Of a stretch of 64,000 nucleotides of DNA, positions 5,174-51,130 are shown piece by piece. Below the pieces are notes generated by a model that made no database searches, had not been told where the DNA came from, and saw only the letters and a list, made by a program, of their open reading frames with translations. The first letter of the stretch is position 1. Every line of letters begins with the position of its first letter. The translations under genes were made by a program, and so were the position numbers. Source of the stretch: a virus; the IMG/VR virus record IMGVR_UViG_3300017779_004709, positions 27,361 through 91,360 of that record; one strand, 5' to 3'.

Positions 5174-6323
5174 TACAATAGTAAAAATAGAGATGTCGGG
5201 TAACCGATATAACGCTTGGGATATTGATGGTAATAAACTTACCTCAGAAATCTCAACTTCCACAAGGAAATCAGCTTATGAAGCTGGTATGTGTTTGGAA
5301 AAACGAAGTGGAAAAAATGATAGGACTTATTGGTGGAAAGTTCCAATGAGTAAATTTGACGAGATGTCAGCTCCTGTCATTGATGTTTCATCAGTTGATG
5401 TTCCATCAGACCACGCTGAAATGTTGAATTTCATTCATAGTTCTTATCAACTTAAACCTAAAGGTTTGGTTATGAAAGAACTGAATTGGAAATATTTGGT
5501 TAGAGGAGCGGTTCGTGGAAAGAATCTTCTGATGACAGGACCCGCTGGTTGTGGTAAAACAATGGCAGCTAAGTCATTGGTAAACGCTTTGGATAGACCT
5601 GACTTCTACTTTAACTTAGGAGCGACTCAAGATCCTCGTTCAACTTTAATTGGTAATACTCACTTTGATAAGAAGAAAGGAACTTACTTTTCTGAATCAT
5701 TGTTTGTTACCGCAATCAAGACACCAAACGCTGTGATTCTACTTGATGAGTTATCAAGAGCTCATCCAGACGCTTGGAATATTCTGATGACCGTTTTAGA
5801 TAGTGGTCAAAGATATTTGAGAATTGATGAATCAGATGGTTCTGAAACCGTACCTGTCGCTGAAGGTGTTACATTCGTCGCGACCGCTAATATCGGTAAC
5901 GAATACACTTCTACTCGTGTTATGGATAAAGCACTTATGGATAGATTCACTATCGTAGAAATGGATGTTCTTTCTGATGAAGAAGAATATGGTCTTTTGA
6001 CTTATATGTTTCCTCATGTCGATCCTGACTTACTAAAGTCTGTTTCAGAAATCGCCCATCAAACTCGTTCCGAGTCTAAGAACGATAGTGGTAGAATCTC
6101 CAATGGAATCTCCACGAGAACTTCTGTGGAAATCGCAGGATTACTCTATGATGGTTTTGGTTTAGATGAAGCCGCTGAAGTTACGGTTTACCCTCAGTTT
6201 TCTGAGGATGGTGGAATGGAGTCCGAGAGAACTTATGTGAAACAGCTCGTTCAGAAGTATGTTTCCGATGGAAGTTCTGATGACTTATTCAATGAAGAAG
6301 AAATCGAAAACGCTAATCTCTAA
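5166..6323 (+). CDS. MoxR/CobS-type AAA+ ATPase
   Basis: 385 residues. Walker A GPAGCGKT at 125-132, Walker B AVILLDELSRAH near 189-200, sensor 1 VTFVATANIGNEYTS, and an arginine-finger region DKALMDRFTIVEMD, all in MoxR/CobS style. The first 80 residues form a separate small domain of unknown fold. It is the likely partner of the vWA protein at 2492, whose MIDAS domain would recruit clients while the ATPase remodels them. Both have their own copy of the same promoter type, so they are probably co-regulated. The CobS name is traditional in phages; actual cobaltochelatase activity is unsupported. Confidence 0.88.
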   Translation: MNNTIVKIEMSGNRYNAWDIDGNKLTSEISTSTRKSAYEAGMCLEKRSGKNDRTYWWKVPMSKFDEMSAPVIDVSSVDVPSDHAEMLNFIHSSYQLKPKGLVMKELNWKYLVRGAVRGKNLLMTGPAGCGKTMAAKSLVNALDRPDFYFNLGATQDPRSTLIGNTHFDKKKGTYFSESLFVTAIKTPNAVILLDELSRAHPDAWNILMTVLDSGQRYLRIDESDGSETVPVAEGVTFVATANIGNEYTSTRVMDKALMDRFTIVEMDVLSDEEEYGLLTYMFPHVDPDLLKSVSEIAHQTRSESKNDSGRISNGISTRTSVEIAGLLYDGFGLDEAAEVTVYPQFSEDGGMESERTYVKQLVQKYVSDGSSDDLFNEEEIENANL

Positions 6324-6335
6324 GATTAGTATCAA

Positions 6336-6367
6336 AGAAGAAACCGCTTTAAATAGTGGTTTCTTCT
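6336..6367 (+). terminator. Perfect 10-bp hairpin after the MoxR gene
   Basis: AGAAGAAACC (6336-6345) pairs with GGTTTCTTCT (6358-6367) across a 12-base loop. There is no long T tract after it, so it may be a weak terminator or an mRNA-protecting hairpin. Confidence 0.5.
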
Positions 6368-6379
6368 ATATCATTTAAC

Positions 6380-6387
6380 TACTTATT
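6380..6387 (+). promoter_or_regulatory. TACTTATT box, variant of a recurrent intergenic motif
   Basis: Lies 16 bases upstream of the gene at 6404 and just after a hairpin. Similar ATACTTAT boxes occur in at least five other intergenic gaps (9198, 15079, 53525, 58364, 59254). It may be the -10-like element of a second phage promoter class. Confidence 0.35.
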
Positions 6388-6403
6388 ATAAGGATAATAA
6401 ATA

Positions 6404-6613
6404 ATGGATAAAACCCTAAAAAAGAAATTGGACAAACTTACAGATCAAGATTTGTTTATGAACGAAGATGTAAGATTGACTTATATTGAAAATGTTGTAA
6501 GGAAACTAAAACAAGGTGTGTATCCTACATCCAATTTAAAGCGTCTTGACTATTTGATTAAACGACATAATCGAATTAAAGAGATGAAAAAAGATTTGAA
6601 AAAAAGAGGTTAG
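6404..6613 (+). CDS. Small charged protein of unknown function, 69 aa
   Basis: Starts at ATG 6404 behind AAGGATAATAA. The product is highly basic and predicted to be helical, with no cysteines and no recognised motif. It stands alone between a hairpin upstream and a terminator-like hairpin downstream, so it may be a monocistronic message. Confidence 0.6.
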   Translation: MDKTLKKKLDKLTDQDLFMNEDVRLTYIENVVRKLKQGVYPTSNLKRLDYLIKRHNRIKEMKKDLKKRG

Positions 6614-6683
6614 TTCCTCTCTCTCAGAGGTGGTATCATTCCCCTTTATTGGTATCACCTCGCATTTTTAGGAAAGGGAACTA
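6611..6683 (+). terminator. Nested hairpin, terminator-like, between 6613 and 6705
   Basis: GAGGTGGTATC (6627-6637) pairs with GGTATCACCTC (6651-6661), eleven pairs with two G-T wobbles, followed by GCATTTTT. An outer stem TAGTTCC (6611-6617) with GGAACTA (6677-6683) encloses it. The inner part looks like an intrinsic terminator; the outer stem would form only when that fails, so this may be an attenuator ahead of the gene at 6705. Confidence 0.55.
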
Positions 6684-6704
6684 ACACAAACTATGGGAGT
6701 GCAT

Positions 6705-7169
6705 ATGAAAAGGATAATAGAAGGTGTGTTAGAAGATTTAGTTGGTAGTGAATTAAATTTTGAATCAAAAACTGCAAGAGATACAATTACAAAATTAGTA
6801 ACATCAGCATTAAGAAGTGAAGGTACTTATATTAAAAATAATGAAATAAAATCAACACCAAATGATTTAAAACTTGGTGGTAAAGTACGAGAACTTAGTA
6901 ATCAAATTTACAGAGAAATGACAGCAGATGGATTACCAATTGGTGGAGATGTAGAGGCAGTATTGGAATCACAGAGGTTAGCAGAAGAAATAGTAAATGG
7001 GAAAAATGACGATTGGATATATGAATCACCAGATGGTGGAGAAACTGTATTCAGAAGAAAATTCGAGGATTATAATCCTGAAAATAAGGAACATATAGAT
7101 TGGGAAACCAAAGAACCAACGGGCAAAACTTTTTTAGAGTATCCGTGGCACAAGAAAGATGAAAGATAA
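6705..7169 (+). CDS. Unknown protein, 154 aa
   Basis: The ATG at 6705 is preferred because GGGAG lies five bases before it; an in-frame ATG at 6693 lacks such a site. The sequence is acidic and soluble, begins MKRIIEGVLEDLVGSEL, has no cysteine, and shows no motif I recognise. It follows a structured leader. The next gene overlaps its 3' end by eleven bases. Confidence 0.65.
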   Translation: MKRIIEGVLEDLVGSELNFESKTARDTITKLVTSALRSEGTYIKNNEIKSTPNDLKLGGKVRELSNQIYREMTADGLPIGGDVEAVLESQRLAEEIVNGKNDDWIYESPDGGETVFRRKFEDYNPENKEHIDWETKEPTGKTFLEYPWHKKDER

Positions 7170-26738: not shown

Positions 26739-27522
26739 ATCATATGTAAAGTTTGTAAATTTTAAAAAAAATGCAGGACTTTGGCATCACACATATAATC
26801 TAAAAGTAATTTTAAAATATGCATATCACAATAATAAAATACCAATAATCCCTATGTTTGAATTTGGAGAACCAGAGGGATTAGGATCAGAAAGAATATT
26901 TGATACAAATTTAAGTCAGTACTATGATTATTCTAAATTAAAAATCGATGGAAAACCATATGAAGTTGTATTAGATAATGAGTTCGAAAATAGTAGGACA
27001 GAAGTTTTTGATTTCTATAAAACACATTTAGGAAAACAAGGTAAATATGTTGGTTATTTTCCTGATATTGAAGAATTAATGGTTGATGGAAATGTTGATA
27101 TTGAATTACCATTTCATCAACATTTAGTAGACATTTCTTCTAATGTAATAAATCATTTGGGTAAATATGTATGTGTTCATGTGAGACGAGGAGATGTTTT
27201 AAGTCAATATTCAGATACAGATGAGGCCACTCAATCAGAAAATATTTTGAAGGTTTTGGACGAGTTAGTTGATGATTCTTATAAGGTTTATATTATGACG
27301 AATGAGGAAGATTTAACCTTATTTGATAAGATAACTCAAAAATATGATACTTATTTTTGGATAGACTTTGATGTATTGACGGAGTGGTATAATAAAGACA
27401 ATTATTTATTATTTTGTATAGAGTTATTAATAATGAAAAGTGCAAATAAAAAAGTTTCAACTTTTGAAAGAAATTATATACACAATATTAACCAATGTGA
27501 TAGGTGGTTATATGAAAGTTAA
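26731..27522 (+). CDS. Fucosyltransferase-like (GT11-like) glycosyltransferase, copy 1
   Basis: 263 residues from GTG 26731; further upstream codons lie within the amidinotransferase and look like readthrough of another frame. KNAGLWHHTYNLKVILKYA resembles the N-terminal nucleotide-binding start, and CVHVRRGDVLSQ near residue 150 is the HxRRxD motif of alpha-1,2/alpha-1,6 fucosyltransferases, which binds GDP-fucose. YIMTNEEDLT and KKVSTFERNY fit the C-terminal part. A distant relative is at 53998. The donor is inferred from the family only. Confidence 0.7.
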   Translation: MDKSYVKFVNFKKNAGLWHHTYNLKVILKYAYHNNKIPIIPMFEFGEPEGLGSERIFDTNLSQYYDYSKLKIDGKPYEVVLDNEFENSRTEVFDFYKTHLGKQGKYVGYFPDIEELMVDGNVDIELPFHQHLVDISSNVINHLGKYVCVHVRRGDVLSQYSDTDEATQSENILKVLDELVDDSYKVYIMTNEEDLTLFDKITQKYDTYFWIDFDVLTEWYNKDNYLLFCIELLIMKSANKKVSTFERNYIHNINQCDRWLYES

Positions 27523-28132: not shown

Positions 28133-28932
28133 GAATAGAACAGGCATATATTTCACCATCGTTATCACATTTCAAAAATGAATTTTTGGAATGTTGGAAT
28201 TTAAAAGATTATGATAATTCAGAAGAACCTGCACTATTTTGGGGATTATATCCTGATTGGGATGGAGAGTTAGAATGTGAGAAAAATTCTTCATCAGATG
28301 TAGATGTCTATAACAATCACATCGGTTTTAAAGTTTTAATTCCTGGTGGGGTTGAATGGACACGAGGTATGTTTGATCTAATAGATACTGAAAATATTAA
28401 TTTGGTAGCTGTTGATGAGATTGAAATCGATTTAAATAAAAAGTATAATCTTCCACATAAATTTTTAAAAATCCCATACTTTGATTTTGAGAAATACGAA
28501 CCTACGATTTTGGGTGATAAGATATATTCTCATATACCACTAAGAGAAAATAGTGGAGATTGGGGAAAAAATTTTGAAAAAATGTTTCATTATGATAAAT
28601 TGATGAATTTATTTGGAGAGGATAGGTTTTGTTTTCCCAAAGAATGGGTAACGCCACAAGAATGTATTAAATATTTTAATCAGAGTTTTGTTAACATAAA
28701 ACCACATCTAATTAGAGGATTTAATACATCTTGGAAGTTGGGAAGTATGGGTAGAAATACAATTACTACCAATATAACGAGTGCACCAAATTATTTACAT
28801 TATGATTCTGATGATGAATTAAAAAGATTAGTAGATGAAGAATCAAAAAAGATTGGAACTATACAAGAGAATAAATTGTGGGATTACTTTCATCAATCCG
28901 ATGATTGGTTAAACGAGGAGTATTGGAAATGA
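28129..28932 (+). CDS. Unknown protein, possibly GT-B glycosyltransferase-like, 267 aa
   Basis: Not confidently recognised. Residues SMGRNTITTNITSAPNYLHYDSDDELKRLV near the C-terminus have the pattern seen in GT-B glycosyltransferases where a sugar-nucleotide loop is followed by a helix. The N-terminal part is rich in Trp and Asp (LFWGLYPDWDGELEC). Its position inside a run of glycosyltransferases, with four-base overlaps on both sides, supports a related role. Confidence 0.6.
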   Translation: MRIEQAYISPSLSHFKNEFLECWNLKDYDNSEEPALFWGLYPDWDGELECEKNSSSDVDVYNNHIGFKVLIPGGVEWTRGMFDLIDTENINLVAVDEIEIDLNKKYNLPHKFLKIPYFDFEKYEPTILGDKIYSHIPLRENSGDWGKNFEKMFHYDKLMNLFGEDRFCFPKEWVTPQECIKYFNQSFVNIKPHLIRGFNTSWKLGSMGRNTITTNITSAPNYLHYDSDDELKRLVDEESKKIGTIQENKLWDYFHQSDDWLNEEYWK

Positions 28933-29657
28933 AATTATACACTAATGGATGTAGTTTTGTTTGGGGAGACGAATTAAAGGATAGAGAAAACGAAGCTTTT
29001 CCATTTTTATTACAAAAGAGGTTAGGATGTGAATTGTTACAAGAATCATCTTGTGGTTCAAACAACCAACGAATACTTAGGAGTACAATAGGATTACCAG
29101 ATCATAGGGCACGTGAAGAAAGTGATAGAGATTATAAACTTCACGAGAAATTTACAAAGGATGATTTTGTGATAATCGGTTGGAGTTCAATATATAGATA
29201 TGAATATTATTCAGATGAGTTATGGAATGAAGTTATACCATTTAATGGTGAGAAATTTAAAGTTATAAAGTATTTTAAGGAAGAATGGTTTATTGTAAAT
29301 TTTCTCAATCAAGTTTTAGCATTACAGAATTATTTAAAATATCATAATATTCCATTCTTCTTTTTTCTATCTTTTGCAGGTGCACCTGTTTATGGTGTAA
29401 AAGATTATGGGTATGATGAAAGAAATGCAGTTTTTCCTGATAAACCAATAGTGGATTGGGTGGATTATTATAGTGAGTTTTTTGAATTGGTAGACAGAGA
29501 AACATTTCCAAGTCTATTTAATAATGATTTGGTTTTTAGGGATTATTGTTTTGGACACGGAGAAGAAATGGTATCTGGACTCGATGGACACCCTACAAAA
29601 GAATCACATAAATTATGGGCAGATTATTTATATGAAAATAGCGGCATCGCAAAGTAA
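28929..29657 (+). CDS. SGNH-hydrolase-like protein, copy 3
   Basis: 242 residues from ATG 28929 with GAGGAG upstream. MKLYTNGCSFVWGDE opens the protein with the G-C-S variant of the nucleophile block; ESSCGSNNQRILRS is block II; DDFVIIGWSSIYRYEYY follows; DGHPTKESHKLWADYLY carries the final catalytic His. Closest in layout to the copies at 21429 and 43674. May remove acyl groups from glycans made by its neighbours (inference). Confidence 0.65.
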   Translation: MKLYTNGCSFVWGDELKDRENEAFPFLLQKRLGCELLQESSCGSNNQRILRSTIGLPDHRAREESDRDYKLHEKFTKDDFVIIGWSSIYRYEYYSDELWNEVIPFNGEKFKVIKYFKEEWFIVNFLNQVLALQNYLKYHNIPFFFFLSFAGAPVYGVKDYGYDERNAVFPDKPIVDWVDYYSEFFELVDRETFPSLFNNDLVFRDYCFGHGEEMVSGLDGHPTKESHKLWADYLYENSGIAK

Positions 29658-30848: not shown

Positions 30849-31831
30849 TAATACTACATAGAGACAATAATATTTATGATGTACCGAAAGGGTGGTTGGT
30901 AGACAATCGATACAATTGGGATTTATGTGGATTTTATCACGAAAAATTTGAAGCATATTTTGCAAACGCTAACATTGATTATAGATTATCTTATTACGAA
31001 GATTATCCAAATGTAGATGGTTCACATTTTATTGGTAGGTTTGCACATGAACGAGGTGATAAAGAATTACATCAAAAATATTATTATGAATTGGAAAAGA
31101 GATTTGATAACATCTGGCCCAATTTCATGACATATAGATTGTATGATGATAAACCAAGAGAAATGGAATATTTGGATTCTATCGGATACTCAAAGTATAC
31201 TGATTATAAAGTTGTAAATAATATAGATGAGTTGTGTGATGTTGTTCAAGTTGGAGATATCGTAAAATCACATACAGGTGCAAGTAGTGATAATGTATTT
31301 TGTGTTACAGAAAAGAAATATTGTGAGTATGGTGAGTTGGTAAATATATTAAACGATACATACTCTAAAGTTGATAATTTTTTTCCAGCCATTATTCAAC
31401 CTTATTTTGAAGGCCTAATGTATAAAATTCATTTGACTAATTATGGGATACATTCGAAAGTATTTGATTATGAACAAGATTTATCACATCCATTAAATTT
31501 TGGTGTTGGTAATCCAAAAGTAGATTGGAAATCACGATATAATTATAGTTCTGAAAGATGTTATTGTATATCTGAAAGTAGATTAAAAAATATGGATATT
31601 ATTTTTGATTTACTCGAAATAAAAAAAATTATGAATACACCTAATATAACATTCGATGTTATTGATAATAAAATATTAGAATTCACTTATCTGTGGTCAC
31701 CAAGTTTACCACATAAAAATGAGTATGGTTTTTATAATCTCGATACTCGTAAGTTTGAAACAATAGAAGAAGAACAATATTTTCTCGGTCATGAACAAGT
31801 TAATTCTGTAATCAAGGAGTTTAATTTATGA
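30845..31831 (+). CDS. Unknown protein, possible ATP-grasp-like, 328 aa
   Basis: Not firmly recognised. VVQVGDIVKSHTGASSDNVFCV, then IIQPYFEGLMYKIHLTNYGIHSKVF, and NTPNITFDVIDNKILEFTYLW resemble, in order, the ATP-binding lysine loop, central strand and metal-binding end of ATP-grasp enzymes, but this is a pattern impression. Such enzymes ligate or phosphorylate small acids. It is coupled by four-base overlaps to the genes on both sides. Confidence 0.6.
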   Translation: MIILHRDNNIYDVPKGWLVDNRYNWDLCGFYHEKFEAYFANANIDYRLSYYEDYPNVDGSHFIGRFAHERGDKELHQKYYYELEKRFDNIWPNFMTYRLYDDKPREMEYLDSIGYSKYTDYKVVNNIDELCDVVQVGDIVKSHTGASSDNVFCVTEKKYCEYGELVNILNDTYSKVDNFFPAIIQPYFEGLMYKIHLTNYGIHSKVFDYEQDLSHPLNFGVGNPKVDWKSRYNYSSERCYCISESRLKNMDIIFDLLEIKKIMNTPNITFDVIDNKILEFTYLWSPSLPHKNEYGFYNLDTRKFETIEEEQYFLGHEQVNSVIKEFNL

Positions 31832-32988
31832 TAGGTCAAAGATACTACATTGCTGAAATATCATATTCAAAAATAAAAGAACAACAAGAGAAATATAATA
31901 TAACAGAATTAAATATATTTTGGGAAAAGGGTAATCCAACAAATATGAGATTTTTTGAAATATATGACAAGGGTGAGTTGGTTTCGTTCTTTAGACTCAG
32001 AAATAAACATGGTATTACTATGGTTGGAAATGTGTTTACCTTTCCACAACATAGAAGAAAGGGTTATTCAAAAATACTGCATTATATTATTATAAAAATT
32101 GTTAAAGATTTGTACCCTAAGACCGAAATCTTAGCCACACAAACAGAAACGGATAATATTAATAATATAACAGCAACGAGAATTTGGGGTGAAGAAAATC
32201 GTAGAGAGGAAACCAACGAACCTAACAGATTTGGTATTATTGATTGGGCATATGAACCACCGAAAGGATTTGTGGATTACATTTACTATGATGATTTATC
32301 AAACATATATAATCGTAATGTAGACGATATAACAGAGTTATGGGATGAATTACCATTAGATAACTTGGTTAAACTGGCTTTAAATCCAATTCCGAGGTTA
32401 CAACACGAAAATGCACCAAAAGATGTAGAACAAGAATTAATAAAAAAATATGGTATTCAACAATATGGATATGGAACTGTCCCTGCAAAAGTTTTAGATA
32501 TTTTCTTTTTGAAACTCCTTATTACTAAAGATGATGTTTTTTACGATTTGGGTTCTGGATCTGGACTCGTATTAATTCATTTTTCACAAAATACACAGGC
32601 CAAAGGAATTGGAATTGAGATAGTACCTGATAGAGTTGTAGAATCCAATAAACATAAGGATAGGTTAAAATTAGAAAATATTTATTTTAAACAAGGAAAT
32701 GTTTTGGATTATGATATTTCTGATGGTAATATTTTTTTTATGTTTAATCCATTTACAATTGAAATTCTAAAAAAGGTAAATGAAAAGTTAAAGAAAATTT
32801 CAAAACAAAAATTTATTAAACTTGCGGTTTTTGGAACTCCTTGTGTAGATTTTTTTAAAAGTCAAGATTGGTTAGAAACAACTTTTCGTACAGAAACTAA
32901 TTGTGTTGGAAATACAGAACCTATATTTATATTTGAATCTCTTACATATTTTACAAAATCAGAATATAAAAAAAAGTACAGAAAATGA
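31828..32988 (+). CDS. GNAT acetyltransferase fused to DOT1-like methyltransferase
   Basis: 386 residues with two domains. The N-terminal ~120 residues are GNAT-like: VGNVFTFPQHRRKGYSKILHYI holds the acetyl-CoA pyrophosphate loop. The C-terminal part from about 200 carries VFYDLGSGSGLVLIHF and GIGIEIVPDRVVESNKHK, followed by IFFMFNPF, a class I methyltransferase with the DLGSG and GIEI pattern seen in DOT1/KMT4-like enzymes. The joined frame has no internal stop or clear restart, so it is a real fusion. Substrates are unknown; both domains would act on amino groups. Confidence 0.7.
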   Translation: MIGQRYYIAEISYSKIKEQQEKYNITELNIFWEKGNPTNMRFFEIYDKGELVSFFRLRNKHGITMVGNVFTFPQHRRKGYSKILHYIIIKIVKDLYPKTEILATQTETDNINNITATRIWGEENRREETNEPNRFGIIDWAYEPPKGFVDYIYYDDLSNIYNRNVDDITELWDELPLDNLVKLALNPIPRLQHENAPKDVEQELIKKYGIQQYGYGTVPAKVLDIFFLKLLITKDDVFYDLGSGSGLVLIHFSQNTQAKGIGIEIVPDRVVESNKHKDRLKLENIYFKQGNVLDYDISDGNIFFMFNPFTIEILKKVNEKLKKISKQKFIKLAVFGTPCVDFFKSQDWLETTFRTETNCVGNTEPIFIFESLTYFTKSEYKKKYRK

Positions 32989-40143: not shown

Positions 40144-40742
40144 ACGGAAAATATTGGGGTGAAAAGAAAACGCCAGTCCGTACGGCAACACAAAATGGTA
40201 ATACCGACAAGCACATTTCGGTTCAAGAAAATAAAATCTATTACTACTCAAGTGTAAACAGAGATAGTGCAGTAGAACTAAACAAGAAGATTGCAGAATT
40301 AGAATCTAAGAGTTTATCCTTATCAAATAGTTTAGATATTGATGCTCCTCCTGTAAAAATAATGATAAATTCAGGTGGTGGTTCTATTGTGGCAGGTATA
40401 TCATCTATGGACACCATAATAAGAAGTAAAGTTCCAATTCATACTTATGTGGATGGATTTGCAGCAAGTGCAGCAACATTCTTATCGGTAGTTGGAACTC
40501 ACAGACTTATGAGTAGAAATTCTTATATGTTAATCCACCAACTCTCAAGTAGTTTTTGGGGAACATATGCTAACTTTGAAGATGAAAAACAAAATCTCGA
40601 CTTGATGATGAAAACCATAAAGGATGTGTATAAGAAGTATACTAAAGTTCCTATGAAAGAACTAAATAGTATACTGAAACACGATTTACTATGGGACGCT
40701 CAAAAATGTTTAGATATGGGAATGATTGATCAGATAATATAA
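40140..40742 (+). CDS. clpP: ClpP-like serine protease, copy 1
   Basis: 200 residues. Catalytic triad visible: S110 in DGFAASAATF, H133 in YMLIHQLSS and D182 in KHDLLWDA; INSGGGSIVAGISSMDTI is the substrate-binding glycine strand. No ClpX/ClpA is encoded in the window, so it would use a host unfoldase or act alone. In many phages ClpP-like enzymes serve as capsid proteases, but no structural genes surround it. A second, divergent ClpP is at 56094. Confidence 0.87.
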   Translation: MNGKYWGEKKTPVRTATQNGNTDKHISVQENKIYYYSSVNRDSAVELNKKIAELESKSLSLSNSLDIDAPPVKIMINSGGGSIVAGISSMDTIIRSKVPIHTYVDGFAASAATFLSVVGTHRLMSRNSYMLIHQLSSSFWGTYANFEDEKQNLDLMMKTIKDVYKKYTKVPMKELNSILKHDLLWDAQKCLDMGMIDQII

Positions 40743-41815
40743 TGAAACCACTTTTATCACAATGTTTGATTGGTTATAAGTTTGGTAGAGTGAATGTAGA
40801 TAAAGATTATTTTCTTTGTTGTAGAATTCCACCGATAGGCAATTTTAATGAAGATGGTACTTATAAAGAATTTTGGAATTCTAAAAAATATAATGATTTA
40901 CGGAAAAAATTAAAATATAATTTAGAGAAACAGTCTGCTGAGTGGGATAACCTTTGTTATGAGTGTCCACATTATGTGGAAAATAAAATGTTATCTGAGA
41001 GTGGAGAAATTGTAGATGATTTACCAAAAACAGGACCAAAGACGTTTGATATTGAGGTAGGAAATCCTTGTAATCATAGATGTAATTTTTGTTGGTTTTG
41101 GTCTTATGATATGTTAGAAAATGATGGTCAATGGGATGGTTGGAAAGATTGGGCAAAAAAACAACTTGATTTAGAAACTTATATTTCGATAGTTGATGAT
41201 CTAAAAGAACTCGGTGGGTGTGAAGAAATTTCCATAAGTGGTGGTGGAGAACCATTTATTGTAAAAGATATTATGAAAATGATTGAACACACAAAGAAGT
41301 TAGGGTTTAAAGTTAAAATATTTACTAATTTCTCACGAGTCAATCATGACGATATTGATAATTTTATAAAATGGGGAGTAGATAGATTTGAAGTTAATAT
41401 TTCCGCTGGTACTGAAGAAACTTATTGTAAAACAAGAAAATTAAAATCTAAGGATTGGAATTTACTTATTGATAATCTTACTTATTTAAATGAAAAGAGA
41501 AAAGAATTAAATTTCACATCACCCATTAAATATGTGGTTATCGTAACTAAAGAAAATATAGAAGAAATAGATGAAATTTTTGAATTGGCAATTAAACTTG
41601 GATGTTATTTTATTGATTTTAGAGATTTAGTTTCTAACGGAGTTCATAACGGACAAGAGTTATTACCAAGTGAAAAGCAGGTGGAAGTTTTTAATAAAAA
41701 GTTTTTAATAAATGTAAAAAAGTATAATTTAAAGGAAGTTACTGATGAATATTATTATTATTCAAAGGAAAGAGATTTAGGAGTGTTCAATGAAAGTATT
41801 AGTTATAGGAGATAG
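40742..41815 (+). CDS. Radical SAM enzyme with N-terminal SPASM-like domain, copy 1
   Basis: 357 residues. The radical SAM cluster motif CNHRCNFC is at C110, C114, C117, unusually late, followed by ISISGGGEPFIVKD (SAM-binding GGE). Before it, residues 1-80 look like a SPASM auxiliary-cluster domain: C8, the CC pair at 26-27 in FLCCRIPPIGNF, FWNSKKYNDLRKKL, and LCYECPHY (C72, C75). SPASM domains normally follow the radical SAM core; here it precedes it. Such enzymes modify peptides or sugars. A paralogue with the same order is at 50075. The substrate is unknown. Confidence 0.82.
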   Translation: MKPLLSQCLIGYKFGRVNVDKDYFLCCRIPPIGNFNEDGTYKEFWNSKKYNDLRKKLKYNLEKQSAEWDNLCYECPHYVENKMLSESGEIVDDLPKTGPKTFDIEVGNPCNHRCNFCWFWSYDMLENDGQWDGWKDWAKKQLDLETYISIVDDLKELGGCEEISISGGGEPFIVKDIMKMIEHTKKLGFKVKIFTNFSRVNHDDIDNFIKWGVDRFEVNISAGTEETYCKTRKLKSKDWNLLIDNLTYLNEKRKELNFTSPIKYVVIVTKENIEEIDEIFELAIKLGCYFIDFRDLVSNGVHNGQELLPSEKQVEVFNKKFLINVKKYNLKEVTDEYYYYSKERDLGVFNESISYRR

Positions 41816-42870: not shown

Positions 42871-43103
42871 TGTCTTTAAATTTACTTGGACATTATATTT
42901 GGAAAAGAATCCAAAAAGATAATACAGATAACAGAAACATTAAACATAAACCGAGAGAAAGTATGACAGGACTTTATATAGGACCATCTGATATTCAAAG
43001 GTATGTAAATGATTACCTCAACTATGGTATTGATTATACAGGAGATGATAATATATCTGCTGAAGATAGAATAGAAAAGTATTGGGATGATTCCGATGGT
43101 TAA
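42870..43103 (+). CDS. Unknown small protein, 77 aa
   Basis: Acidic C-terminal half (YTGDDNISAEDRIEKYWDDSDG), basic N-terminal half. No recognised motif. Start overlaps the zinc-ribbon stop by one base (TAATG). Confidence 0.55.
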   Translation: MSLNLLGHYIWKRIQKDNTDNRNIKHKPRESMTGLYIGPSDIQRYVNDYLNYGIDYTGDDNISAEDRIEKYWDDSDG

Positions 43104-43677
43104 AATAGAGGATTTATCATTAGAGATTGCAAATTATTGGACATCATCTAAGATGTTTCAAGAAAACAATACTAATTGTGGGGCTCTGATAGCCTTTGAC
43201 TGGCATGGTGATTGTTTATCTGAAATAAATACTAATATTGATTTACATGATTTAGAAATTGATAATTTTAAATTTCATTCTTTGATATATTTTATTGCTG
43301 AAAATAATTTCAATTATATATTGGGGTTGAGAAATGTTAGATATAAGAATAATCCATCAGAGTCTTGGACTAATAAATTAAAAGAACATTTAAATACAAA
43401 TAGTTTAGATTACGATGAGTATGTGGTTCAACCATGGCCTACATCTATTCCTGAGTTCGATGTTCCTGATAATATTTTTATTTTAAGGTATTCATTTAAT
43501 CCAGATAATAAAATTGATGATTTAGCTGCAAATAATACATTATTCAAAAATTGGATTTTAAAGAGTGATTGGGAAGATAAGTTTATTGAAGAAAGTCCAG
43601 AACTTGAAAAAAAACGAGTTATAGTTTTAGTTAGTGATATTGAAAATTTAGTATTACATAGTGGATATGTCAAATGA
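43096..43677 (+). CDS. Unknown protein, 193 aa
   Basis: ATG 43096 overlaps the previous gene by eight bases; an in-frame ATG at 43087 is possible. Soluble, acidic, with YILGLRNVRYKNNPSESW and a C-terminal RVIVLVSDIENLVLHSGYVK. No known motif recognised. Coupled to the SGNH gene after it by a four-base overlap, so it may work with it. Confidence 0.6.
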   Translation: MVKIEDLSLEIANYWTSSKMFQENNTNCGALIAFDWHGDCLSEINTNIDLHDLEIDNFKFHSLIYFIAENNFNYILGLRNVRYKNNPSESWTNKLKEHLNTNSLDYDEYVVQPWPTSIPEFDVPDNIFILRYSFNPDNKIDDLAANNTLFKNWILKSDWEDKFIEESPELEKKRVIVLVSDIENLVLHSGYVK

Positions 43678-44354
43678 TACTTTATACCATAGGAGATAGT
43701 TGGACATATGGATATGATTTAGAAAATCCAAAAACAGAATGTTATCCATACCTTTTATCACAAAAATTAGGATGTGATTTAATAAACGAGGGTTTACCTG
43801 CAGCATCAAATGATTGGATGTTTAGAAAATCAATCGAGTGGATATTGAAGAATGATATTTCGAAATTAGAATTATTTATAGTTGGATGGTCTTTTCCTTG
43901 GCGACGAGAGGAGAATTTTAGTTTTTATCATGGTGGTGATCCTAAATCTGAAAGGAAAAATTATGGAAATGGACCTGACGGTGAACCTATTTCCAAGTGG
44001 ATTAGTGAGAATTTATTTGATATGAGATTATCATACATAAAAACCTTTACTTATATCTATACATTACAGGAAATATTAAAAAGTAAAAAAATTAATTATT
44101 TGTTCTATTACCCATTAGATAATTTTTTTATTCAAGATGATATGTACGAAAAAACCATCAAATCTGATGTTCATGATATTTATTTACAGATAGATATGGA
44201 TAGATGTGTGGGTCCTGATTTTGATGGTAATCATGTTATTCCATATGAAGAATTGGCTTGGGGTGGAGGTCCACGTAGACATCCAAATAAAAAAGAAACT
44301 GAGTGGTTGGCAGACCAACTATATAAGTTTATAAAGGAAAATTATGGAATTTAA
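43674..44354 (+). CDS. SGNH-hydrolase-like protein, copy 4
   Basis: 226 residues. MILYTIGDSWTYGYDLE keeps the canonical G-D-S nucleophile block, unlike copies 1-3. ECYPYLLSQKLGCDLINEGLPAASNDWMF matches copy 3 closely in layout; LFIVGWSFPWRREE follows; RRHPNKKETEWLADQLY has the final His. Likely esterase or acyl hydrolase; substrate unknown. Confidence 0.68.
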   Translation: MILYTIGDSWTYGYDLENPKTECYPYLLSQKLGCDLINEGLPAASNDWMFRKSIEWILKNDISKLELFIVGWSFPWRREENFSFYHGGDPKSERKNYGNGPDGEPISKWISENLFDMRLSYIKTFTYIYTLQEILKSKKINYLFYYPLDNFFIQDDMYEKTIKSDVHDIYLQIDMDRCVGPDFDGNHVIPYEELAWGGGPRRHPNKKETEWLADQLYKFIKENYGI

Positions 44355-44771: not shown

Positions 44772-45938
44772 ATGGTTAAATTTTACTTTGACTTGAATGG
44801 TTATAGTAAACATAGGGTTTCAGACAAGATAAACAAAATAAAGGTTATTGACCGAAAGAAATTACAAGACGGAATAGATACATTTCAGAAAGAATTAGAT
44901 TGGCCACATATGTGGTCAGTTGATGATGCACAAAAACGATTAGATGATGGTTGGTGGTTTTATGTAATAGAGATAAATGATAAATATGTCGGATGGTCTT
45001 GGTTTGATATTAATACAAAAAAATTTTGTAATTTGTATGTTCATAAAGATTTAAGAGATGGTGGTTTAGGTAAAGATTTAGTTTATGTAAGATTAAACGA
45101 ATGTAAGAATCAAGGTGTTGAAAAAGTTTGGATGGAAGTCGATGAATGGAATGTACCTATTCAAAAAATTGGACAAGAACTTGGTTGGACACCAAAGATA
45201 CATTACACTTTTTGGACAGGTGGTTTTGATTCAACCTATTTAATATGCAAATTATTAATAGATAACAAAATTGTTCAACCTATTTATATTGATGATGGAG
45301 TAAATCATGGTGGATACCATTCAAATCCATTATCGGTACAACGAGGTGATAATTCTTATCCAAGACAATCAACCGATATAGAAAAGGATAGGATAGATTG
45401 GTTAGAAAACAAGATACATGAAATCATACCAAATTCTAAAGATTTGTTATTACCATTGATGATTGTAGATAATCCTATAAAAGAGGATAACCACATAAGT
45501 GATGTTATAAAAAAATACAATGAATGGATACCTGAACCATTATTTAAGGATAAAAATGGTAATCCACATTGGTTAGAAGTTCAGGCAGACATACTAACGA
45601 GATTCCAAAAGGAATTTGGTATGGAAGTTTATTACTCTAACGACCACATTGATGGAGAGGTTTGGGAAGCTTTAGATGACGCCATAGAGGATGGAAAGTT
45701 AGATGTGGATAAGTTATCGGATGAGTATAAAGAATTTGAAATATTTAGTGGATTCAATCAACCATTGAGAACCACCAATAAAGAAGAAATGTTAGAGGAT
45801 TCAAAACTACATGGATTTGATGAGTTGTTGTATTACACTTGGACTTGTTGGTATCCAAAAGATGATGAACCTTGTAATGAATGTAAAATGTGTAAGGAGA
45901 GAATAATAGAATGTCGGAACATTGGGGATACCATTTAG
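44772..45938 (+). CDS. GNAT acetyltransferase fused to QueC-like PP-loop ATPase
   Basis: 388 residues in two domains. Residues 1-~140 are GNAT-like (FCNLYVHKDLRDGGLGKDLVYV is the acetyl-CoA loop). From about 144 a PP-loop ATPase begins: YTFWTGGFDSTYLICKLL (TGGFDS at 149-154, equivalent to SGGxDS). The C-terminal CNECKMCKER with an earlier Cys (TCWYP) matches the zinc site of QueC, the enzyme that makes 7-cyano-7-deazaguanine. Other queuosine-pathway genes were not recognised here, so DNA deazapurine modification is only a possibility. The fusion is unusual. Confidence 0.72.
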   Translation: MVKFYFDLNGYSKHRVSDKINKIKVIDRKKLQDGIDTFQKELDWPHMWSVDDAQKRLDDGWWFYVIEINDKYVGWSWFDINTKKFCNLYVHKDLRDGGLGKDLVYVRLNECKNQGVEKVWMEVDEWNVPIQKIGQELGWTPKIHYTFWTGGFDSTYLICKLLIDNKIVQPIYIDDGVNHGGYHSNPLSVQRGDNSYPRQSTDIEKDRIDWLENKIHEIIPNSKDLLLPLMIVDNPIKEDNHISDVIKKYNEWIPEPLFKDKNGNPHWLEVQADILTRFQKEFGMEVYYSNDHIDGEVWEALDDAIEDGKLDVDKLSDEYKEFEIFSGFNQPLRTTNKEEMLEDSKLHGFDELLYYTWTCWYPKDDEPCNECKMCKERIIECRNIGDTI

Positions 45939-46276
45939 TACTTGATTGTAAAAATGGAAGAAAATTAAACGAAGATTCTGAAGAAGATATAAGAGTTTTC
46001 ATTAAAGAACTTGTGGATAAAATTGATATGGTGGCTTATGGTGAACCAAATATAGCTTATCTACCAACACCAAGTAGACCTGAGTGTTCAGGATGGTCGG
46101 TGGTTCAGTTAATCTATACGAGTAGTATTACCTGTCATTTCGCCGATGATAGTGGAGATTTTTATTTAGATGTTTTTTCGTGTAAAAAATTTGAAAAAGA
46201 CATAGTTATAGAATATGTGAAGCAATATTTTTCACCTTTTAGGGTGAAAGAGAAATACTTATTAAGACAATCGTAA
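45911..46276 (+). CDS. S-adenosylmethionine decarboxylase-like protein (phage SpeD type)
   Basis: 121 residues. HWGYHLVLDCKNG, IDMVAYGEP and YLDVFSCKKFEKDIVIEYVKQYFSPFRVKEKYL follow the small AdoMet decarboxylase pattern known in marine T4-like phages. These enzymes self-cleave before a Ser to form a pyruvoyl group; here the site reads YTSSITCHF (S71/S72), without the Glu of the bacterial ESH motif. Activity is therefore uncertain, but the family call is good. Would feed polyamine synthesis. Overlaps the QueC-like gene by 28 bases. Confidence 0.75.
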   Translation: MSEHWGYHLVLDCKNGRKLNEDSEEDIRVFIKELVDKIDMVAYGEPNIAYLPTPSRPECSGWSVVQLIYTSSITCHFADDSGDFYLDVFSCKKFEKDIVIEYVKQYFSPFRVKEKYLLRQS

Positions 46277-46297: not shown

Positions 46298-47170
46298 ATG
46301 AAAAGGTTATTATTGATATTAGGAATGGTTTCAGTTCTAACAGCTCAAACGGCAACAATCAAAAATAGTATAATTGGATATACCACTATTAATGAGAAAT
46401 ATGATCCAGAAGGTAGTGATGATAGAAATGGTGATGAATATGACACTGCTATTTCTTTTGACAAACCATATCTTTGGTCATTCATTAAAAGTGATGATTC
46501 AAAATGGATGGCATCCATCTTCGTAGACGCACCTTGGGCAAGAGGTAGTGTTTATGTTGAGGAGTTATTCTATAAACCATATAGTGATAAGTTCACAGTT
46601 GGTTTAGGACGACAAGCAATTCCATTTGGTTCTAATGTTCCATACTTGGATTTAACAAGGGGTGATAAATTTACCTATCAAACACCAACACCTAACGATG
46701 TTGGTTTGTTATATTTCGGAGATGGTATTAGTGTTTATGGTGGAGTTGGTAATTGGTTTATCGAAACCTATCACGGAAACGATATAGAAAATGGATTCGA
46801 GGAATACACAGCAGGTCGTGTGAGTTACGAGTTTGGTGACCACTTTGTTGGTGTATCAGCCGATAACGAAAACAGACAGGCACTTGATATAAGTGGATAT
46901 AGTGAGTTCGTGGATTATGTTACAGAATTTAGAGAAGATTACCAATGGGGAAGAGCCGTTGTTAGACTACCTAATATGTGGCATCTAAAAGGTTTAGGAC
47001 TAATTGGTGGTTTGGAAAGAACCGAAGATGAAACACAGGCACTTTATGGTGTTGTGTATCAGTATGGAGAACCCAATCAATTTGTTTCCGCTGAATTAAG
47101 TGGAGAAGGTGATTTGAGGGTTAAGTTGTATTATGGTTTTAACTTAAAGATAGGAAATAAAAATGACTAA
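46298..47170 (+). CDS. Outer-membrane beta-barrel (porin-like) protein
   Basis: 290 residues. A Sec signal peptide is clear: MKR, hydrophobic LLLILGMVSVLTA, then QTAT. The rest alternates polar and aromatic residues in strands (FVGVSADNENRQALDISGYSE, GKLYYGF-like endings) and finishes with YYGFNLKIG, typical of barrel proteins. It appears to be a host-type outer-membrane protein carried by the phage. It could alter permeability or block superinfection (inference). AAAGGAG precedes the ATG. Followed by a membrane transporter with eight bases overlap. Confidence 0.72.
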   Translation: MKRLLLILGMVSVLTAQTATIKNSIIGYTTINEKYDPEGSDDRNGDEYDTAISFDKPYLWSFIKSDDSKWMASIFVDAPWARGSVYVEELFYKPYSDKFTVGLGRQAIPFGSNVPYLDLTRGDKFTYQTPTPNDVGLLYFGDGISVYGGVGNWFIETYHGNDIENGFEEYTAGRVSYEFGDHFVGVSADNENRQALDISGYSEFVDYVTEFREDYQWGRAVVRLPNMWHLKGLGLIGGLERTEDETQALYGVVYQYGEPNQFVSAELSGEGDLRVKLYYGFNLKIGNKND

Positions 47171-48071
47171 ATTTTTAAAAGGATTTTTAGCAATAACAGC
47201 TGCAGTATTCGCTTGGTCAACCCTTGAGGTTACTGGTAGTTTTATATTCGCTGAAGGAGCAGGACCCGTATCGGTATTGTCGGTTAGATTTCTAATTGCC
47301 ACATTATTGTTTGCTGGGGTAATGTTATGGAAAAAACAAACAACAGGTGAAAATCTATTCGCCGTGGAAAAGGAAGATAGGAAGAAATTTCTATTAAATG
47401 GTGTAATATTGGCAGCACACTTGTTAGTGTATTGGTTCGCTTGGGAACTACTCGACCCGAACCTACCTGTAATTTACGCACTATTCTATATATATCCATT
47501 TATATTGTGTTTGATTTCCATATTTTACTATGGAGAGAAGTTCAGTAAAAATAGAAAACTCGCATTAGGATTGGGAACTCTTGGTTGTGCGTTCGCTATT
47601 GAACTGATACCAGCATTCTCACTTGAAGCCCTAAACACCAAAGGTGTATTATTGGGTGTGGCAGCTGGATTATCTTGGGTAGCATACTTGTTAGTAGGAC
47701 AGGATATAATGAGAAAATATAAACCACTTACGATTGTATTTTATGACTTTCTACAAGTGTTTGTTTATGTTTCATTATTCCAATCACCCATGACAACACT
47801 TTCAGAGGTAACATTTAACGGATTACTGGCAATCGCTTACATTTCAGTAGTGGCAAGTTTTATTGCTTATCTATGTTATTGGATAGCAGTTAAGAATATT
47901 GGAGCAACCAATACAGGAATTGCTGAATTGGGAACACCGATATTTGGAGTAACACTCGGTTATTTTTTCTTAGCTATGTCACCATCATTGTGGCAGATAG
48001 CTGGACTTGTGATGATTTCAAGTGGATTGTACCTAATCTACAATGAAAAACAAGTCGTATATGATCAATGA
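47163..48071 (+). CDS. EamA/DMT-family inner-membrane transporter
   Basis: 302 residues with about ten hydrophobic helices. AVFAWSTLEVTGSFIF, ALFYIYPFILCLISIF, AAGLSWVAYLLVG and ASFIAYLCYWIAVKNIGATNTGIAELGTPIFGV are the two EamA repeats (the internal duplication of the family). These carriers export metabolites or take up small solutes. Complete, so probably functional. A transporter is rare in phages. With the barrel protein before it, it forms an envelope pair that may move the same compound (inference). Confidence 0.88.
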   Translation: MTKFLKGFLAITAAVFAWSTLEVTGSFIFAEGAGPVSVLSVRFLIATLLFAGVMLWKKQTTGENLFAVEKEDRKKFLLNGVILAAHLLVYWFAWELLDPNLPVIYALFYIYPFILCLISIFYYGEKFSKNRKLALGLGTLGCAFAIELIPAFSLEALNTKGVLLGVAAGLSWVAYLLVGQDIMRKYKPLTIVFYDFLQVFVYVSLFQSPMTTLSEVTFNGLLAIAYISVVASFIAYLCYWIAVKNIGATNTGIAELGTPIFGVTLGYFFLAMSPSLWQIAGLVMISSGLYLIYNEKQVVYDQ

Positions 48072-49267: not shown

Positions 49268-50088
49268 ATTTAGGTTCAGTTTCACCTGAAATATACACAT
49301 CTCTTTGGGAATACGATAATGTCGTTGAGATCAAAGAACCCACCTTAATAAAATTTTCAACAAATAGAACCTTAATTCAATTTTGGCAAGGCCCTTATTG
49401 GGATGAAGTTGCTCAGACTTGGAAAAACGACCATACGGATTTGAGTAACTTTTATAATGCCAAGATATTAGAAGGAATTCCAAAGTGTAGGTGTTACATA
49501 CCTATCGAAATCAATTATAGTGCTGAGATAGCATATTATATAGCAAGTAAACACGGAACTGATTTTATCTTATATCTACCCGATATGGATGTACTTTCTG
49601 AAAAACATAAACGACAGGAAATAGATGCTATATTTCAAAATATTATGGTTGAGGTTTTATCAGATAGAAGTATTGATTCTAAAATTGATGGTAATGATGT
49701 ATTGTATAAACACAACAATAAGTACAAAAAGTTTTCAGGTTCATTATATAGACCTGCTCTAAATGGGTTTGGTTATATTGATAATGGTATAACCTACAAG
49801 TTTGATTCTGAACTGGCTAACAAGTTAAGGGGTATTACTAATGATGTGGATATTAAGAAATTTGATGTCAAGGATGTTTCTGATGTTGTAGGTGGATTGT
49901 GGGAAATTGATTCTACCATAGATAAGAATGATTTGGATTTTGAAGTAATTGATAGGTTGTGTTATAAATTGGGATATACTTTACGACATGACAATTTTGA
50001 TGAAGAAGATTTATTATTTGAGAGAGGACATAAGAGAATGACAGATAAAGACTGGTATTTGTATGGAAATAATGATGGATTTACCTAA
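49249..50088 (+). CDS. Lipoate-protein ligase-like protein (weak call)
   Basis: 279 residues. NDVLYKHNNKYKKFSGSLYRPALNG then YIDNGITYKFDSELANKLRG resembles the lysine-binding and C-terminal strands of LplA-type ligases (DIxxxGKKxxG...), and TLIQFWQGPYWDEV may correspond to the N-terminal ligand loop. The match is by pattern only. If right, it would attach lipoate or biotin-like acids to a protein. Overlaps the SET gene by 19 bases. Confidence 0.5.
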   Translation: MEIRYLDLGSVSPEIYTSLWEYDNVVEIKEPTLIKFSTNRTLIQFWQGPYWDEVAQTWKNDHTDLSNFYNAKILEGIPKCRCYIPIEINYSAEIAYYIASKHGTDFILYLPDMDVLSEKHKRQEIDAIFQNIMVEVLSDRSIDSKIDGNDVLYKHNNKYKKFSGSLYRPALNGFGYIDNGITYKFDSELANKLRGITNDVDIKKFDVKDVSDVVGGLWEIDSTIDKNDLDFEVIDRLCYKLGYTLRHDNFDEEDLLFERGHKRMTDKDWYLYGNNDGFT

Positions 50089-51130
50089 GAGTTGTAATTT
50101 TGGTCGTGTTTATGGTAGACTAACTACTGATGGTGAGTATAAAATTTGCTGTGGTAATGTGCCATCATCTGGTAATTATCACACGGATGGTAAATTTGTA
50201 GATTATTGGAAATCAGACAAATTAAATAATTTACTTATTCGATTACGAGATAATCTTGACGAGATGAATGAGACTTGGGCAGGGAGTAGTTGTAATCATT
50301 GTCCTCATTCTGTAATTAATGAAAAACTTCATAATGGTGAAATGACCATTCCAAACTCACCAATTACTTTCAACATAGATGTTATTAATATGTGTGACCA
50401 TAGATGTAACTTTTGTTGGCATTGGTCATACGATATGATAGACGATAAGGCACAATTCGATGGGTGGAAAGATTGGGCTAAAGAGAAAATAGATTTTCAA
50501 ATATTCAGGGATACCGTAGATGGTTTAGTAGAACTTGGTAATTGTGAGGAGATTCAAATTGGTGGTGGTGGAGAACCATTACTACATCCGAATATACACG
50601 AGATGATTGGATATGTCAAGGAAAATAATCTCTCCTGTAAATTAATCACCAATTTTTGTCAGATAACAGAAGAACAACTTGATAATTTAATTGAAGTAGG
50701 ACTTGATGATATCTTAATTAATATATCGGCTGGAACACGAGAGACCTACTGTGAGACAAGACGTGTACAGTCAAAAGTATGGGATAAATTGATGTCTAAC
50801 ATAGAGCATATAATTAAAAATAGAACAACAGATGTTCCAAGAGTTACTTTAAAGAGTGTAATTAATAGCGAAAATATTCACGAAGTCAGTCACATGATAG
50901 ATTTGGGAGTGACACTTGAAGTTGATGTCGTGGCTCTGAGATTCTTTCAAGAAGATGGTGTATATAAATCCAATAATAAAATTGTTAGTGGGGAGCAACA
51001 AATACAATTTAATAGAGTACTTAAAGAAAAGATATCTGAATATGGATATGAAGAATTCAACGATGATACTGCATTCAAATATAATTACAAATCACCGAAT
51101 GTCAAAACACTATTACTTGGGGATGTTTGA
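50075..51130 (+). CDS. Radical SAM enzyme with N-terminal SPASM-like domain, copy 2
   Basis: 351 residues from ATG 50075, placed by comparison with the copy at 40742 (alternatives ATG 50072 and 50063). SPASM-like part: C7, CC at 25-26 in YKICCGNVPSSGNY, YWKSDKLNNLLIRL, and SSCNHCPHS (C73, C76). Radical SAM core: CDHRCNFCWHWSYD (C107, C111, C114) and IQIGGGGEPLLHPN. The two copies share WSYD and the KDWAK stretch but have diverged throughout, so the duplication is old. Substrate unknown. Confidence 0.82.
   Translation: MDLPKSCNFGRVYGRLTTDGEYKICCGNVPSSGNYHTDGKFVDYWKSDKLNNLLIRLRDNLDEMNETWAGSSCNHCPHSVINEKLHNGEMTIPNSPITFNIDVINMCDHRCNFCWHWSYDMIDDKAQFDGWKDWAKEKIDFQIFRDTVDGLVELGNCEEIQIGGGGEPLLHPNIHEMIGYVKENNLSCKLITNFCQITEEQLDNLIEVGLDDILINISAGTRETYCETRRVQSKVWDKLMSNIEHIIKNRTTDVPRVTLKSVINSENIHEVSHMIDLGVTLEVDVVALRFFQEDGVYKSNNKIVSGEQQIQFNRVLKEKISEYGYEEFNDDTAFKYNYKSPNVKTLLLGDV

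Follow-up and report, generated by a model that had tools for sequence, protein, structure and literature searches.

A GNAT–PP-loop fusion of the QueC superfamily in a marine phage and its relatives in bacterial polysaccharide clusters

Here we describe a phage gene that joins, in one reading frame, a GNAT domain to a PP-loop ATP-pyrophosphatase (PP) domain homologous to the QueC superfamily. The PP-loop, zinc and acetyl-CoA motifs are intact, the residues with which QueC holds CDG have been lost, and the bacterial family to which the PP domain belongs is often found in polysaccharide clusters. We predict, as an evenly poised judgement, that the fusion has two activities, N-acetylation and an ATP-dependent amidation or ligation, and tailors a glycan (or amino-sugar or amino-acid) building block; it is carried in a cargo island of the phage that is rich in sugar genes. 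Every test made here speaks against a role of the fusion as a queuosine enzyme.

Nucleobase synthesis and, more recently, anti-phage protein modification are the settings in which the QueC scaffold is known. If our reading is true, this scaffold reaches glycan chemistry through a branch that has no name but a clear signature, and many genes annotated merely as weak QueC matches gain a testable explanation. If it is wrong, the analysis is still a warning against labelling such genes queuosine genes. The gene lies in a window of 64,000 nucleotides (positions 27,361 to 91,360) of a 91,360-base viral contig from IMG/VR, which derives from a marine phage and is a fragment of a genome; coordinates are those of the window unless another contig is named.

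The fusion gene and its viral relatives

The fusion gene (44772-45938, plus strand, as are all its features) is a single open reading frame of 388 amino acids with an ATG start. Its N-terminal half, a type-A GNAT domain (residues 1-140, 44772-45191), matches PF00583 at 1.2e-8 with 35.7 bits over a cut-off of 20.7, which places it in the GNAT superfamily, and has a stand-alone homologue at 4582-5217 of contig L020. The acetyl-CoA motif RxxGxG/A is present as RDGGLG (R95-G100, 45054-45071), with R95, G98 and G100 invariant in type-A GNATs. The PP domain (residues 144-388, 45201-45938) contains the PP-loop WTGGFDST (residues 148-155, 45213-45236) and the zinc motif C359(x)8C368xxC371xxC374 (45846-45893); TGGFDS and the four cysteines are conserved among relatives. 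The whole protein matches phrog_1550 at 3.3e-11 and PF06508 (QueC) at 1.7e-4, slightly below the cut-off, which the isolated domain passes (22.9 bits, cut-off 22). Profile match, PP-loop, C-terminal zinc site, hhalign comparison of the PP family with canonical QueC (98%, 1e-13) and fold together place the domain in the QueC superfamily. An earlier note on this DNA, made from the sequence alone, had recognised a GNAT-QueC-like fusion that keeps the PP-loop and the C-terminal zinc cysteines, and had allowed that a separate start codon might reveal two proteins; the fusion holds, and the frame is single and continuous in every relative.

The same fusion, in one frame, occurs in 16 IMG/VR contigs, with PP domains about 56-93% identical to that of the window (one identical contig left aside). 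Both domains are under purifying selection, with dN/dS of 0.07-0.49 in every pair tested, and the fusion is therefore not due to chance. The N-terminal half that accompanies the PP domain comes in two divergent types, which hhalign relates to each other as distant homologues (96%, 30% identity, 79 columns): type A, found in the window, and type B, found in contigs L025, L026, L027, L029, L030 and L031. Type A retains the acetyl-CoA motif R95xxGxG; type B retains the arginine, with the glycines missing in several members, so acetylation may not be the common function of the N-terminal half. Both halves are found as adjacent stand-alone genes, with no PP gene, in L020. In type-A fusions the GNAT and PP domains differ in their history: dS between L013 and L015 is 0.25 in GNAT and 0.99 in PP, and between L015 and L018 the pattern is reversed (0.33 and 0.12), which points to recombination close to the GNAT/PP junction.

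Other viral contigs carry the PP domain fused to a glycosyltransferase 2 domain (L117), joined to an ATP-grasp domain (L121) or as a stand-alone protein (L118). An 844-aa ORF at 6969-9503 of L119, a 190-kb viral contig, contains a region that shares 27% identity with the ATP-grasp half of L121, a PP domain and a further C-terminal domain; sequence support for this C-terminal part as a glycosyltransferase is absent, and we make no such claim. No relatives were found among INPHARED phages searched at 0.01 or among plasmids searched with a bacterial relative at 1e-5.

Directly or nearly directly upstream of the fusion in most relatives, and at 43087-43677 (plus strand) in the window, lies the gene of a 196-aa protein whose fold has no assignment. 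Its EINTN resembles the Mg motif of ATP-grasp enzymes, and its candidacy as an ATP-grasp fragment was dropped at an hhalign probability of 0.2%. A region related to this protein is found in L020 within a 590-aa ORF (5284-7056) that has Hint/intein-like domains (PT-HINT 1.7e-25). DUF6071 proteins are encoded at 43674-44354 (6.5e-9) and 28905-29657 (1.9e-11) and stand several in a row in relatives such as L019.

Fold and active site of the PP domain

Structure prediction, which the earlier note had proposed, gave a confident AlphaFold2 model of the PP domain from a 41-sequence alignment (pLDDT 85.5, pTM 0.87); the full-length protein was modelled poorly (pLDDT 62.7), and that model was left out of the analysis. 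The solved fold nearest to the predicted one is Cap9 (Z 11.8, 154 aligned, 3.2 A), followed by QueC (Z 9.6), YcfA (9.5) and QatC (9.2), and then by PP-loop sulfur transferases and TilS at about 8. The A7 profile matches the QueC structures 2pg3 (5e-6) and 3bl5 (7e-6). With QueC and Cap9 first by both sequence and fold, an identity as asparagine synthetase, which had been named as a possible objection to the QueC assignment, is not supported.

With QueC the domain shares the common PP-loop ATP-pyrophosphatase fold, the C(x)8CxxCxxC zinc site, E204 (the Glu of YxQxHxxE), K337 and TW-C, and the PP family retains the PP-loop and all of these residues. The QueC residues that contact CDG and ATP lie in YxQ, VPxRN and YPDC, and the CDG-motif residues Tyr35, Arg99, Tyr131 and Tyr189 are essential in the E. 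coli enzyme (PMC13329287). The family alignment holds no conserved counterparts of Tyr35, of the RN of VPxRN or of YPDC; from the canonical motifs YxQxHxxE, VPxRN and YPDC the Glu alone is retained, and the fusion protein scores 19.1 bits against the TIGR00364 equivalog, whose cut-off is 150. Because the CDG- and ATP-recognition motifs are missing, a substrate other than that of QueC is likely, and the branch, judged by these motifs, has probably changed substrate, as has QatC (PMC13279940). The earlier suggestion of a related adenylation on another substrate is thus upheld as regards the substrate, but its direction, towards a nucleobase or nitrile, is not supported, as the context described below points to glycans. 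Gat-QueC, known from phages such as 9g and from archaea, is likewise phage-borne and also combines an N-terminal transferase with a QueC-type domain, but the partner there is a glutamine amidotransferase of a deazaguanine DNA pathway (PMC6884629), whereas the window fusion has a GNAT.

Cap9 (type IV CBASS) and QatC (qatABCD), the closest solved folds, are repurposed QueC scaffolds; Cap9 conjugates CDG to protein (PMC13279940), and QatC, like the window PP domain, is without the CDG residues. These matches favour a protein modifier, in which the PP domain would adenylate a carboxylated small molecule and attach it to a partner protein, at a side chain or the N-terminus, perhaps in the service of counter-defence. 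We nevertheless think this unlikely. The top rank of Cap9 may partly reflect a minimal core, the CDG-holding Tyr/Asp of Cap9 are not conserved in the PP family, and the fusion does not have the QatC combination of Thr/Thr with a C(x)19CGxC zinc site, its own zinc spacing being C(x)8CxxCxxC. The PADLOC QueC match is only 0.022, none of the partners CD-NTase, QatB and TatD was seen, and the extra domain of the fusion is a GNAT. Cap9- and QatC-like operons would include a protein with an N-terminal Gly, but the adjacent ORFs of the window have no MG start, and the proteins inspected there have the N-termini MSEH, MIPM and MEFK in place of the glycine start MGGS or MGTS.

The bacterial family and the glycan context

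Searched with 15 phage PP domains, a genome set with one representative per species yielded 40 bacterial loci, whose proteins are stand-alone and about 240-310 aa long. The family signature is [FL]WTGG[FY]DST, VQPxY, RxS...E, GxQYxWLxRF, FP, TKxEM and TWFCxxPxxGxPCGxCxPC. PF06508 is matched by 38 of the 41 phage and bacterial members, which score 18-28 bits against TIGR00364 (cut-off 150); NCBIfam has no name for the family, and a literature search of incomplete coverage found no description of the branch. Its occurrence in bacteria is sporadic: full-length members are present, seed genomes counted, in 7 of 296 genomes (E < 1e-40) from the phylum of a Marinilabiliaceae member and in 5/398 and 4/398 genomes of two other phylum samples. 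A separate full-length canonical QueC is encoded in 5 of the 13 member-holding genomes and was not seen in the other 8, and the family is therefore a paralogue independent of the queuosine enzyme. As candidates for a bacterial GNAT-PP fusion, three phylum searches gave longer frames only in G604, G989 and G751, and these were rejected since they contain no recognisable extra domain.

Tandem copies (2-4) of the PP gene stand at 9 bacterial loci. Within two genes of the bacterial PP genes are found sugar-transfer ATP-grasp proteins (ATPgrasp_ST, 6 proteins), ATPgrasp_TupA, glycosyltransferases, bacterial sugar transferase, polysaccharide synthesis, deacetylase, epimerase and DegT aminotransferase, and GNAT genes lie nearby in L050, L056 and L064; this link to polysaccharide and GNAT genes is a descriptive one. 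Members outside obvious polysaccharide clusters occur as well (e.g. L055, L058, L065, L068 and L076). The island of the window phage encodes GT2, GT25, a weak GT8 match, a DegT aminotransferase fragment, a PfkB (sugar) kinase, a sulfotransferase and a GNAT-methyltransferase fusion. Taken descriptively, the bacterial neighbours, the viral fusions and the phage island suggest a glycan or amino-sugar substrate. In the GNAT-methyltransferase fusion, at 31828-32988, a methyltransferase domain (1.7e-7) comes after the GNAT match (PF00583 1.8e-4).

In the tailoring of a glycan building block that we favour, the N-terminal GNAT would acetylate an amine of the substrate, with acetyl-CoA as donor. The PP-loop domain at the C-terminus, stabilised by zinc, would convert ATP to AMP and PPi, adenylating a carboxylate or amide oxygen on this substrate or on a linked one; displacement of AMP by ammonia or an amine would then leave an amide or amidine. 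We infer the adenylation chemistry from the family precedents QueC and Cap9 and, by analogy, from NASAT; gene context suggests the glycan substrate, and the order of the steps and the product are likewise proposed. NASAT (WbpG, WbuX, LpNASAT) is also a zinc PP-loop enzyme, comes from surface polysaccharide clusters and amidates N-acetyl sugars in LPS (PMC10607449). It belongs to a separate family in which a tetracysteine CxxC...CxxC precedes the PP-loop; the fusion has no CXXCXn[GN]XCXXC before its PP-loop, all four of its zinc cysteines lying after it, so NASAT serves as an analogy and not as an orthologue. Its absence among the structural matches listed carries no weight.

More tentatively, and with rather less assurance than for the fusion itself, we suggest that this branch of the QueC superfamily may be an ATP-dependent module that forms amides or amidines in surface-glycan assembly of bacteria and phages. 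It would be deployed as tandem paralogues in bacteria and as GNAT, ATP-grasp and glycosyltransferase fusions in viruses, and the phage fusion would couple N-acetylation and acyl activation in one chain.

The downstream speD gene and further alternatives

The gene of a SpeD-family pyruvoyl-dependent decarboxylase (45911-46276, plus strand; 121 aa, ATG start; PF02675 4.9e-13, phrog_3125 1.6e-20) follows the fusion and overlaps its reading frame by 28 bases (45911-45938), exactly the overlap reported in the earlier note. AAGGAG at 45894-45899 stands 11 bases ahead of the speD ATG. The 28-base overlap is also present in 8 contigs (L012, L013, L014, L015, L018, L019, L025 and L026), but 6 contigs have the fusion without an adjoining speD, so the proposed coupling of the two genes applies to some relatives and not to others.

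Ser71 (pyruvoyl), His76 and Cys91 are invariant in SpeD homologues and shared by the class 1b phage enzymes (AdoMetDC, SpeDC ODC and SpeDA ADC), which places the protein in SpeD class 1b; self-processing in T. maritima needs S63, H68 and C83 (PMC10407285). The cleavage site had been described as altered, and YTSSI without a Glu was read correctly, but the site is not unusual. The residue at -1 to the pyruvoyl Ser is Thr in the window SpeD and also in pelagiphage SpeD homologues; it is Asp in phiN3 SpeD, a proven AdoMetDC (PMC9992855). With the catalytic residues intact, a broken cleavage site was rejected, and by its sequence the site is ordinary. Thr70, Phe77 and Tyr85 resemble residues of the ODC-type (SpeDC) signature (PMC10407285), but its Gln was not seen.

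A function linked to polyamines, in which the fusion would acetylate an amine made by SpeD (putrescine, agmatine or decarboxylated AdoMet) and ligate it to an acid, fits the overlap retained in 8 contigs, and phage SpeD homologues do have ODC, ADC or AdoMetDC activity while phages encode spermidine N-acetyltransferases (PMC9992855). We give it little credence, however: speD does not adjoin the fusion in the 6 contigs mentioned, no polyamine family is among the listed neighbours of the bacterial PP relatives, and spermidine synthase has no match in the 91-kb record. Next to speD, the interval 46298-48071 encodes an outer-membrane-barrel-like protein with a signal-peptide-like start and then an EamA transporter (8.5e-29); both genes stay downstream of speD in many relatives and come directly after the fusion in L030.

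Least probable, and in our view very improbable, is a QueC-like step in 7-deazaguanine biosynthesis for DNA or tRNA with host-made CDG, for which the superfamily homology, the canonical zinc motif and a radical SAM gene at 40742 with a weak QueE-like PHROG match (8.5e-7) can be cited, but against which stand the absence of the essential CDG motifs of E. coli QueC, the separate canonical QueC in 5/13 member genomes with none seen in 8/13, and the lack of a match to FolE, QueD or TGT/DpdA in the 91-kb fragment; the earlier note had likewise seen no other familiar queuosine-pathway member in the window. A canonical queuosine role was rejected on the motifs, the TIGR00364 score and the partners not found in the record. 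Radical SAM proteins are encoded at 40742-41815 and 50063-51130; the former has an N-terminal SPASM-like domain (PF13186 5e-5) preceding its radical SAM domain and matches PADLOC pVip at 1e-15, a match that may be merely generic.
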